From NCBI GenBank assembly GCA_025360615.1, contig JANYBX010000200.1, positions 1 through 40,141 of the forward strand: DNA of 40,141 bases, read 5' to 3'. Each line of letters opens with the position of its first letter. Within the stretch, counting starts at the first letter, position 1. A program made the translations under genes and the position numbers. This DNA comes from Opitutia bacterium. Its GTDB lineage: Bacteria > Verrucomicrobiota > Verrucomicrobiia > Opitutales > Opitutaceae. The notes below the pieces were generated by a model, which ran no database searches, had not been told where the DNA came from, and saw only the letters and a program-made list of their open reading frames with translations. Of the stretch, positions 30,083 to 40,141 are shown in pieces.

Positions 30083-31162
30083 ATGAGCCAAAAATCCGAC
30101 GGCCAAAACTACGCCCCGCAAGGCAAACCCAGCCCCGTGGTGCAGCCCGGCGAATTCATTTTCGCCGCCGCCTACCTCGAGCACGGCCACATCTACGGCC
30201 AGTGCAACGGCCTGCTCGAAGCCGGTGCCGAGTTGAAATGGGTTTACGATCCCGATGTGACGAAAGTCGAAGCCTTCCGCGCGAAATATCCGCAGGCGCA
30301 AGTCGCGCGCTCCTTCGACGAAATCCTCGCCGACCCGGCCGTGAAACTCGTCGCCGCCGCCGCCATCCCGAGCGAGCGCGGTGCCATCGGCTGCCGCGTC
30401 ATGGAGGCCGGCAAAGACTACTTCACGGACAAGACTCCCTTCACCACGCTCGACCAACTCGATCAGGCCAAAGCCGTCGTCGCGCGCACCGGCCGCAAAT
30501 ACGCGGTGTATTATAGCGAGCGCCTCCACGTGGAGTCCGCGATGTTCGCCACCGACCTCGTCGCCAGCGGCGCCATCGGCCGCGTCATCCAAGTGCTCGG
30601 TCTGGGGCCACATCGTTTAGGGAAACCGGCGCGCCCGGCGTGGTTTTTCGAAAAAGCGAAATACGGCGGCATCCTCTGCGACATCGGCAGCCACCAGTTC
30701 GAGCAGTTCCTCACCTACTCCGGCGCGACCGATGCGATCATCACGCAGGCCGCCGTCGGCAACTTTGCCAACGCCGACACCCCTGAGTTCGAGGACTTCG
30801 GCGAAGCCTCGCTCCTCGGCAACAACGGCGCCTCGAACTACATTCGCGTCGACTGGTTCAACCCCGCCGGCCTCAGCACGTGGGGCGACGGCCGCACCGT
30901 CATCCTCGGCACCAAGGGCTACATCGAACTCCGCAAATACGTGGATGTCGCCCGCGAGAAATCCGGCGACCACGTCTACATCGTGGACGAAAAAGGCGAA
31001 CAACACCTCAACGTCACCGGGCAGGTCGGCTTCCGCTTTTTCGGCCAGCTCATGCTTGATTGTCTCAACCGCACCGAGAACGCGATGACGCAGGTCCACG
31101 CCTTCAAGGCCGCCGAACTCTGCATCCGCGCGCAACTCGCCGCGCGCAAAATTACGCCGTGA
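30083..31162 (+). CDS. Gfo/Idh/MocA family oxidoreductase
   Basis: FAAAYLEHGHIYGQCNGLLEAGAELKWVYDPDVTKVEAFRAKYP; DPAVKLVAAAAIPSERGAIGCRVMEAGKDYFTDKTPFTT; GGILCDIGSHQFEQFL. ATG at 30083. Confidence 0.9.
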   Translation: MSQKSDGQNYAPQGKPSPVVQPGEFIFAAAYLEHGHIYGQCNGLLEAGAELKWVYDPDVTKVEAFRAKYPQAQVARSFDEILADPAVKLVAAAAIPSERGAIGCRVMEAGKDYFTDKTPFTTLDQLDQAKAVVARTGRKYAVYYSERLHVESAMFATDLVASGAIGRVIQVLGLGPHRLGKPARPAWFFEKAKYGGILCDIGSHQFEQFLTYSGATDAIITQAAVGNFANADTPEFEDFGEASLLGNNGASNYIRVDWFNPAGLSTWGDGRTVILGTKGYIELRKYVDVAREKSGDHVYIVDEKGEQHLNVTGQVGFRFFGQLMLDCLNRTENAMTQVHAFKAAELCIRAQLAARKITP

Positions 31163-31170
31163 ACGCCGTG

Positions 31171-31300
31171 AACATCCAACGCTCAACATCGAACCTCCAA
31201 CGTCCAACGATTCGGAGAGACGCGTTTCTCCGCCGAGTGAGTGGAGGTTCGAAGTTGGATGTTGGATGTTGGAAGTTCGATGTTGGATGTTGGAAGTTCC
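31171..31300. repeat. Inverted arrays of a 7-bp repeat
   Basis: Left arm 31171-31208: AACATCC AACGCTC AACATCG AACCTCC AACGTCC AAC. Right arm 31247-31295: GTTCGAA GTTGGAT GTTGGAT GTTGGAA GTTCGAT GTTGGAT GTTGGAA. Spacer holds CGGAGA-GACGCGTT-TCTCCG hairpin. Confidence 0.92.
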
Positions 31301-31304
31301 TCCC

Positions 31305-31829
31305 GTGAGCATCGCCACGCGCACCGGCGACGACGGCACGACCGGCCTCCTCTACGGCCAGCGGGTACGGAAAGATCACCCGCAGATCGAGGCCATCGGC
31401 GCGTTCGACGAACTGAACGTCGCCCTCGGCGCCGCAAAACCGCTCCTGACCGACGAGCACACGCGCGCGCTCATCGTCGCACTCCAGCAAAATCTTGTCG
31501 CACTCATGGGCGAGCTCGCCTGCGCCGAGGCGGACATCGCTCGCTACTCCGCGTCGAAGTTTGCGAAGATTTCCTTCGACGATGTCCAACGCCTCGATGC
31601 CGCCGTCGCCACGCTCGAAGCGCGCGGGTTAAAATTCGACGGCTGGGCCACGCCCGGGGCGAATGCACTCGGCTCCGCCTTCGACACCGCGCGCGTCATC
31701 GCACGCCGCGCCGAGCGCCGCCTCACCGCCCTGCCCGCGCACGGCCGCAGCGTGCGGCCAGAGCTGCGACAGTTCACCAACCGCCTCGCCGACCTGCTCT
31801 GGCTGCTCGCACGTCAGGCGGAGCAGTAG
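31305..31829 (+). CDS. PduO-type cob(I)alamin adenosyltransferase
   Basis: GTG start: VSIATRTGDDGTTGLLYGQRVRKDHPQIEAIGAFDELNVALGAAK; RVIARRAERRLTAL; FTNRLADLLWLLAR. Confidence 0.9.
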   Translation: MSIATRTGDDGTTGLLYGQRVRKDHPQIEAIGAFDELNVALGAAKPLLTDEHTRALIVALQQNLVALMGELACAEADIARYSASKFAKISFDDVQRLDAAVATLEARGLKFDGWATPGANALGSAFDTARVIARRAERRLTALPAHGRSVRPELRQFTNRLADLLWLLARQAEQ

Positions 31830-38406: not shown

Positions 38407-38670
38407 ATGCCCGCCTCGCTTCGCACCTGCTACATTCGCGCCTTGGCCGAGCCCGCCGTTTGGCGCCGGGCCGCCCGCCTCGGTCTCGTAGTTGGCCTCA
38501 TCCAAGTCGCCCTCAACCAGGGCGACCACTGGGTGAGGGGCGAGGTCACCCGGCTTATCCTTCTCAAATCGGTCTCCTCCATTTTAGTCGCCGTCCTCGT
38601 CGTCCTCCTCGCCTCCGCCTCCACCCGCGCCGACGCCATTCGCTCCTCCCTCCACCATGAAAAAATTTAA
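38407..38670 (+). CDS. NrtS-like small nitrate/nitrite transporter protein
   Basis: 87 aa; RAARLGLVVGLIQVALNQGDHWVRGEVTRLILLKSVSSILVAVLVVLLASAS resembles NrtS; overlaps downstream permease by 14 bp. Confidence 0.6.
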   Translation: MPASLRTCYIRALAEPAVWRRAARLGLVVGLIQVALNQGDHWVRGEVTRLILLKSVSSILVAVLVVLLASASTRADAIRSSLHHEKI

Positions 38671-39442
38671 ACTCGACTGGCTCTTTCTCCCGCTCATCGG
38701 CTTCGCCGTCGTGCTCCTGCTCTGGTCGATCTCCAGCGGCACGTGGGCGCCAAATCTCCCCTCGCCGCTCAAAACCTGGCAGTCCAGTCGCGACTACATC
38801 ATGGACCCGTTCGCCAAACGCGGCGAGATGGACCAAGGCATCCTCCGCTTCACCTGGTATTCGCTCATCCTCGTCGCGAAAGGCTACGCCCTCGCGCTGA
38901 TTGTCGGCACGCCCATCGGCTTCTGTCTCGGACTTTCCAAGACGTTTACGAAAACGTTCGACCCGATCATCCAGATCCTCCGCCCCGTCTCGCCGCTCGC
39001 GTGGCTGCCGCTCGGCCTCGTGCTCTTCATGAGCGCCGGCAAGGAGGCCGGCACCTACGGCGCGCTCTTCACCATCGCGATCTGCGCGATGTGGCCGACC
39101 GTGCTCAACACCGCCGTCGGCGTGCGCGCCGTGCCGCAGGATTTTCTGAACGTCGGCCGCGTGCTGAAACTCTCGCGTTGGAAAACGCTCACGAAAATCC
39201 TCATCCCCGCGACGCTGCCGTATATGTTCACCGGCTTCCGGTTGTCGCTCGGCATCGCGTGGCTCGCGATCGTCGCCGCCGAGATGCTCACCGGCCGGCC
39301 CGGCGCCGGCGGTTTTCTTTGGCAGGAATACAACGCGCTCATCTACGAGCACATCATTCTCTCGATTATCACCATCGGCCTCGTCGGCTTCGGCCTCGAC
39401 CGCCTGATGGGCCTCGTCGAGCGCCGGTTCAAATCGGTCTGA
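38657..39442 (+). CDS. ABC transporter permease, nitrate type (NrtB-like)
   Basis: YALALIVGTPIGFCLGLSKTFTKTFDPIIQILRPVSPLAWLPLGLVLF; LGIAWLAIVAAEMLTGRPGAGGFLWQEYNAL. Confidence 0.9.
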   Translation: MKKFKLDWLFLPLIGFAVVLLLWSISSGTWAPNLPSPLKTWQSSRDYIMDPFAKRGEMDQGILRFTWYSLILVAKGYALALIVGTPIGFCLGLSKTFTKTFDPIIQILRPVSPLAWLPLGLVLFMSAGKEAGTYGALFTIAICAMWPTVLNTAVGVRAVPQDFLNVGRVLKLSRWKTLTKILIPATLPYMFTGFRLSLGIAWLAIVAAEMLTGRPGAGGFLWQEYNALIYEHIILSIITIGLVGFGLDRLMGLVERRFKSV

Positions 39443-39482
39443 GCGGAATGTCCACCATGTGCGATGTATGAAGACTGATGTT

Positions 39483-39848
39483 CTAAACCGATTTTCGCGC
39501 CGTGCGGCGCATGGCGGAGAAAATTCGCACCAGCTCGCCGGCTTCCTTGCGCAACTCGACCAGCCGCGACTCGGGCAGAAAGGCTGCGCGCGCGATCAGC
39601 TCGATCCAGAACTCTGTTTCGTCCGCCTCCTCCAGCACGATGGCAAGCTTGTGGGCGAAATCCGCCCGGGACTTCGCGCGCTGCGTCGCCCGATAATTCG
39701 CGGCCACCGAGCACGCGCTGCGCGCGACCTGCGTCGCCACATTTTTTGCAGCCGCAGTCTTGGGCAGGCTCTCCGCCATCCGCATCACGCGGAGGGCAAA
39801 GATCATCGTCCGCTCGCACATCTCAGCCGGGTTCATGCCTGATCCCAT
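39483..39848 (-). CDS. Four-helix-bundle protein (S23 / 23S rRNA IVS-type family)
   Basis: MIFALRVMRMAESLPKTAAAKNVATQVARSACSVAANYRATQRAKSRADFAHKLAIVLEEADETEFWIELIARAAFLPESRLVELRKEAGELVRIFSAMRRTAR is the typical TIGR02436-like pattern. Confidence 0.88.
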   Translation of the reverse strand: MGSGMNPAEMCERTMIFALRVMRMAESLPKTAAAKNVATQVARSACSVAANYRATQRAKSRADFAHKLAIVLEEADETEFWIELIARAAFLPESRLVELRKEAGELVRIFSAMRRTARKSV

Positions 39849-39882
39849 CACACATCAGCCATCGCTCATCAAACATTCTTCC

Positions 39883-40141
39883 ATGCCCTTCCTCGAACTC
39901 AACAACGTCACCAAAGGCTTCGGCGGTCCGCCGGTTCTCCAAGGCGTGAATCTCTCGATGGAGCGCGGCGAGTTCGTCGCCATCGTCGGCTACTCCGGCT
40001 CCGGCAAGACCACGCTCATCTCGCTCATTGCCGGCCTCACGCGGCCCGACTCCGGCACGGTGAAATTAAACGACCTCGAAATCACCGCGCCCGGCCCCGA
40101 CCGCGGCGTCGTGTTTCAAAATTACTCCCTGCTCCCCTGGC
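39883..40141 (+). CDS. ABC transporter ATP-binding protein, nitrate type (NrtC/D-like), truncated by window edge
   Basis: MPFLELNNVTKGFGGPPVLQGVNLSMERGEFVAIVGYSGSGKTTLISLIAGLTRPDSG...GVVFQNYSLLPW. Confidence 0.92.
   Translation, partial: MPFLELNNVTKGFGGPPVLQGVNLSMERGEFVAIVGYSGSGKTTLISLIAGLTRPDSGTVKLNDLEITAPGPDRGVVFQNYSLLPW

Follow-up and report, generated by a model that had tools for sequence, protein, structure and literature searches.

Most genes for IVP, the four helix bundle protein of PF05635/TIGR02436 (23S rRNA IVP), lie between inverted arrays of 7-bp units. Gene and arrays occur together at unrelated sites, the corresponding empty sites hold no heptads, and the arrays have geneless relatives. 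In our judgment it is probable, though by no means certain, from these sequence comparisons that gene and arms form a minimal mobile element of ~420 to 440 bp, whose ends would be recognized by the element's own pentamer and whose catalysis would come from a host enzyme. The copy that led to this analysis lies in a 40,141-nucleotide stretch of contig JANYBX010000200.1 of an Opitutia bacterium (the window) and, as part of the same explanation, is probably an insertion, old and now decaying, within an ABC transporter operon. Codes beginning with L, G, and C denote loci, genomes, and contigs.

Results

The window gene (39483 to 39851, minus strand; start GTG at 39851 or ATG at 39836) matches PF05635 with 58.6 bits (cut-off 33.8; Pfam E value 8e-16) and TIGR02436 with 81 bits (cut-off 24). 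It is antisense to its operon, between an ABC transporter permease gene (38657 to 39442, plus strand; PF00528) and the gene for the transporter ATPase (39883 to 40141, plus strand; PF00005), which is cut by the window end. The earlier note had described inverted heptads on both sides of the gene, and these stand as to both sequence and coordinates. The left arm (39446 to 39480), 3′ of the gene, is placed between the permease stop at 39442 and the ORF stop at 39483 and reads TGCGATG TATGAAG ACTGATG, with an outer GAATGT. The right arm (39841 to 39876), 5′ of the gene and with the ORF start region on one side and the start of the ATPase gene (39883) on the other, reads TGATGAG CGATGGC TGATGTG TGATGGG on the minus strand, again with an outer GAATGT; part of it (39845 to 39871) was also called as a repeat by TRF. 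Both arms are degenerate. Aligned with the reverse complement of the right arm, the left arm scores 12 (shuffle p=0.0008), and each arm matches itself at a lag of 7 bp (left p=0.007, right p=0.002). Taken alone, the copy is modest, its score being less than the 99th-percentile threshold for the family, 15.2; it is a single decayed instance of a general rule.

The same junction is occupied in three genera: in the window genome, in G146 (L081), and in G043 (L077). At L081 the IVP is 61% identical to that of the window and the arms are clearer (score 15, p=0.0006). In ten relatives, the best with 91% permease identity, the junction is empty: permease and ATPase genes are adjacent, with gaps of 7 to 58 bp and no heptads. 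At L077, an element carrying a GxxExxY gene is nested in the remnant of an IVP element. This remnant has lost the IVP gene and consists of a heptad arm and a short stretch that resembles the 3′ end of IVP.

The general rule emerged from a survey in which the upstream flank of each gene was aligned with the reverse complement of the downstream flank, with shifted positions as controls. The host-family sample held 74 testable copies, taken from the best-ranked profile matches and from the window genome, so that weak-scoring family copies are under-represented. Arms above the control 99th percentile were found at 62 of these 74 loci, with a mean score of 20.9 against 10.1 in controls. The best lag-7 self-match was 0.733 at these loci, compared with 0.454 in controls; lags from 4 to 13 other than 7 were flat, and lag 14 followed lag 7. 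Scanning GTDB genomes yielded 80 named IVP loci, spread over many phyla and with one archaeon among the hosts; 73 of them were testable, and 53 of the 73 exceeded the 99th percentile of controls. These loci cover Verrucomicrobiota, Planctomycetota, Bacteroidota, Acidobacteriota, Pseudomonadota, Chloroflexota, and Bacillota, among others. Four or five units make up 139 of 187 arrays, and a minority of loci use 8-bp units in place of 7-bp ones. Thus, the check proposed in the earlier note, an inspection of the flanks of other four-helix-bundle genes, did not turn up a family whose other copies lack such flanks. No IVP match was found in phage records. On the rfbA side of one gene neighborhood, IVP elements occur in several genera (L008, L010, L013, L015, L018, and L030) with differing heptads, GGCTAGA in some and TGATGGG in others, reflecting either the replacement of one element by another or rapid change of heptads at a single site.

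Heptads vary between loci and agree between the two arms of one locus; those of the Trichormus IVP WP_011316862, for instance, are GAGTCAG. Among pairs of copies that share no flank homology, the similarity of heptad profiles rises from 0.58 for distant proteins to 0.92 for close ones, a coupling that none of 1,000 Mantel permutations reached; heptad sequence thus follows IVP protein phylogeny at unrelated sites. The two arms of an element are a better match for each other than for the arms of other elements with similar heptads (78 of 97, p=1.5e-8), and thus the arms remain matched as they diverge. The extent of the shared unit is clearest in the AGTAGCG subfamily, whose members, inserted at unrelated places, are homologous only from about −54 ahead of the domain to about +70 behind it, ~430 bp that correspond exactly to two arms and the ORF. 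Homology between unrelated sites ends at the outer heptad edge. Since arm, ORF, and arm are all that these sites have in common, together they are the mobile unit. The suggestion that heptad arrays mark cassette ends is therefore strongly supported, by this boundary as well as by the heptad-free empty sites and the flanking of most copies. IVP is the sole ORF of the unit, and no recognized transposase was found within it.

Empty and occupied versions of the same site were best resolved on cyanobacterial conjugative plasmids. Plasmid C of Trichormus variabilis ATCC 29413 (L206) is occupied, and plasmids of Nostoc carneum, N. linckia, and Tolypothrix, at ~97% identity, are empty. The empty site reads AGTTAAAAAGTAATTAAC; the occupied one reads AGTTAAAAAGTAAT, then an insert running from AAATCAGAATTCAG to CTTCTTT, then GTAATTAAC, for an insert of 428 bp with a 5-bp duplication of GTAAT. 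Similarly, Nostoc ATCC 53789 carries an occupied site on pNsp_a (L220) that is empty on pNsp_c and on the C052 and C057 plasmids. Here the empty site is GGTTCTAGGTTATG, and the occupied one is GGTTCTA, an insert from AATCAGG to TCTGGA, and TTCTAGTTATG; the insert is 418 bp, the duplication is TTCTA, and the upstream stop codon is preserved as TAA. Because these two clean insertions sit at a stop codon, the adjacent genes are undamaged. Presence and absence were also confirmed at L205, L202, L324, and L326 and for a hairpin inside the L223 IVP gene, with ends that are imprecise or a duplication that is unclear or absent. Across old copies the excess of 5-bp direct repeats is weak (12.1% versus 8.2%), since most copies are old. 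Clean 5-bp duplications were found only at the two polymorphic IVP sites and at a geneless array in the window (see below); the duplication is thus well shown at two IVP sites and not yet general.

The empty versions on the plasmids, like the empty window junction, hold no heptads. The comparison with empty sites called for in the earlier note was thereby made, and the outcome in which heptads predate the insert did not occur; heptads as pre-existing insertion targets are rejected at the window and plasmid sites. In some genomes heptad repeats abound (PMC4692102, PMC4679880), which might suggest that tracts came first and attracted the gene, or that arms match by chance. The first idea is refuted at the sites tested, the second is excluded for the family as a whole by the survey statistics (the single window copy being weak in this respect), and we consider the pair extremely improbable.

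The window also holds a geneless inverted heptad element at 31172 to 31303, beginning with AACATCC, ending with GTTGGATG, and enclosing a short unrelated loop (TRF score 95). The earlier note took this array for the same design and perhaps an empty version of the cassette. The inverted heptad array is indeed strong; its heptads, GTTGGAN/GTTCGAN, are unlike those at 39446 to 39876. It is absent from every relative with a readable junction between the Gfo/Idh and cobalamin adenosyltransferase genes, including three of the same genus. CGTGA stands on both sides of it (31167 to 31171 and 31304 to 31308, plus strand; boundaries inferred by comparison with relatives), the left copy where the stop and start codons of the two host genes overlap. 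A 5-bp duplication of this GTGA overlap would be in keeping with such a pattern. A tandem duplication at 31154 to 31173, ACGCCGTGA in 2.2 copies, adjoins the array and overlaps the left CGTGA.

In the window genome, one IVP gene (L003, on contig C113) has the same heptads, as do geneless inverted arrays on C51 (two arrays), C166, C226, and C368, whose loops are mutually unrelated; the pattern has 38 matches in this genome, and a reversed-pattern control has none. As an insertion with IVP-type heptads, those of L003, the array is therefore a geneless, non-coding relative, standing to the IVP element as a MITE stands to a transposon, and is not an empty site.

Geneless copies are often close to, or in the same genome as, IVP copies with matching heptads. 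When 400 kb from each of two complete genomes was scanned without bias for period-7 arrays, 19 and 29 turned up; shuffled sequence gave 1 and 0. The nuo operon of G051 holds a single IVP element, whose heptads are AGGAGTC, accompanied by several geneless hairpins with the same heptads at neighboring gene junctions. Four geneless G051 copies share a core of ~90 bp and a subterminal CGGA(A)CTTCG, also present in the IVP element; like MITEs, they are short non-coding copies, with a common core and the heptads of a longer relative nearby. Geneless inverted arrays built of 8-bp units (GGCTGAAA type) were seen on C51 of the window genome G000 (L254) and in G051 (277821 to 278005), alike in these two family genomes.

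Predicted folds pair the arms (z=−2.8, −1.8, and −7.0, the last for the geneless window array), like the stems of rRNA intervening sequences (IVSs), a pairing that the earlier note had proposed to test in the transcript. However, mismatches between arms show no G-U-compatible excess in the gene-sense RNA (136, against 198 in the other direction), so that by the G-U bias test selection on the arms for RNA pairing is rejected. The slight reversal possibly reflects arms that are G rich on one strand. One can envision that these inserts are RNA-processing or regulatory elements, with a stem cut by RNase III and an insert that leaves the mRNA, or with IVP binding its own hairpin, mobility being incidental. 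Known IVSs are cleaved by RNase III (PMC4990558), and the inserts lie at gene junctions within operons. However, junction positions are equally expected from selection against damage, the mismatches lack the bias, and the window gene is antisense to its operon. We regard this reading as unlikely, though the foremost of the alternatives to a mobile element.

Discussion

We imagine that the IVP homopentamer would recognize its own heptads, either in DNA or in hairpin form, and would bring both element ends together, and that a nuclease, polymerase, or transposase supplied by the host would make the staggered cut and do the joining. Geneless copies could be served in trans by the same IVP protein. 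Binding of heptads by the pentamer is suggested by arms of four to five heptads, by the coupling of heptads to protein phylogeny, and by geneless copies with the same heptads. Two PDB homologues of the IVP family, 2gsc and 2rld, have five chains each, and the XCC0516 structure, as cited in PMC3936711, is described as five four-helix bundles. Cutting and joining would fall to another enzyme, since IVP lacks a catalytic motif. Its lack of any known catalytic domain also counts against the mobile-element explanation, as do the small number of sites with clean 5-bp duplications, the four other polymorphic or nested cases (L205, L202, L326, and the hairpin in the L223 gene) with imprecise ends or no duplication, the weak excess of direct repeats at old copies, and the weakness of the window arms taken alone.

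The same lack of a catalytic motif would suit a protein that is only a passenger, its ends recognized and moved in trans by a transposase that a resident insertion sequence or a Tn7/Mu-like element provides, so that the units would be MITEs with a captured gene. Tn7/Mu-like elements also produce 5-bp duplications, and the many geneless relatives fit as well. However, a single host transposase predicts something other than ends that differ wholly between subfamilies and track IVP phylogeny at unrelated sites, and in many phyla the enclosed gene belongs to the same family; nor was a full insertion sequence sharing the heptad ends noticed in passing. We think this unlikely too, ranking it behind RNA processing. 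By analogy with Avd of diversity-generating retroelements, to whose fold that of PF05635 is reported to be related (PMC10053308), movement might instead depend on a reverse transcriptase. Three complete family genomes rich in IVP genes, G003, G051, and G071 (8, 7, and 6 copies), have no match to RVT_1; we therefore reject this dependence and hold such retromobility to be very unlikely.

The explanation that we prefer, a mobile element read by its own IVP, touches several known systems. rRNA IVSs with an S23p/IVP ORF, as in Leptospira and Coxiella, are considered selfish and have complementary ends (PMC4990558). They share with IVP elements the protein family, the approximate size (428 nt for the Coxiella IVS), and complementary, stem-capable ends (28 bp in Coxiella) (PMC4990558); the IVP elements differ in their locus-specific heptad-array ends, their 5-bp duplications, and their geneless relatives. 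A simple motif check of 161 copies placed none of the loci studied in an rRNA gene, with 23S motifs absent to a distance of 3 kb, and the window copy lies between ABC transporter genes. MITEs are likewise short, with inverted ends, a target duplication, no transposase gene, and several geneless copies per genome. IVP elements are unlike them in having tandem 7-mer ends that vary by subfamily, an intact gene family enclosed in most phyla, and no known parent transposon. Avd is a similar small four-helix-bundle protein (PMC10053308), but IVP elements have no reverse transcriptase, template, or variable repeat, and their hosts can lack RVT_1.

Heptanucleotide repeats have been described in cyanobacteria, Beggiatoaceae, and Xanthomonas, including the cyanobacterial STRR/TAACTGA type and the GGGAATC type of Xanthomonas and Nostoc; Xanthomonas has 70 to 75 inverted pairs per genome, for which no explanation was given (PMC4692102, PMC4679880). 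Like the IVP arms, these are intergenic 7-bp arrays, in Xanthomonas as inverted pairs, and TGACTCC-type units are present on the cyanobacterial plasmids that we analyzed. One of the reports states no general association with mobile elements (PMC4692102). Neither a gene nor mobility is connected with the repeats in these reports, whereas here the arrays are the ends of an IVP element or of its geneless relatives. We found no paper joining IVP genes with heptad repeats in the open-licence full-text literature.

Eighteen 23S_rRNA_IVP genes in cas loci have been listed as CRISPR-associated (PMC3936711). We observed IVP elements within CRISPR-Cas operons at L208 and L324 (cas6/cas4 and cas10/cmr3), with a left array of ~300 bp at L208; the cas10/cmr3 junction of Picosynechococcus PCC 7002 has no insert. 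These copies look like ordinary insertions at gene junctions.

IVP elements have company. GxxExxY genes (PF13366/TIGR04256, PD-(D/E)XK-like; L092 to L121 and L077) carry inverted arrays of ~9-bp units, CAC[AG]GAGNN, of near-constant sequence, and 25 of 30 exceed the control 99th percentile; gene and arrays are another small-gene element that parallels the first. In G002, the nuo operon holds two genes that by eye look like the KilA-N type (L331:11163-12060 and L331:3173-4009), both absent from G051, which is 96 to 98% identical. An 8-bp duplication, TTCATCAG, accompanies one of them, the other is inside a geneless heptad hairpin, and they are a further small mobile gene unit.

More tentatively, and again from comparative evidence, IVP elements may be mobile elements of a new class. 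A homopentamer that is not itself an enzyme would read a diverging "heptad code", one 7-mer per subfamily, with coevolution of protein and ends and chemistry supplied by the host; GxxExxY elements would be a parallel class. This broader reading is possible, and we put it below even chances.

Uniting IVP genes and heptanucleotide repeats in one mobile unit links two puzzles and turns the vague annotation of TIGR02436 into testable biochemistry. Such a unit explains why IVP genes are found inside operons, including the cas operons in which they are listed as candidate CRISPR-associated genes. If the class is real, debris of such elements would account for much of the heptanucleotide repeats in bacterial genomes that so far lack an explanation.
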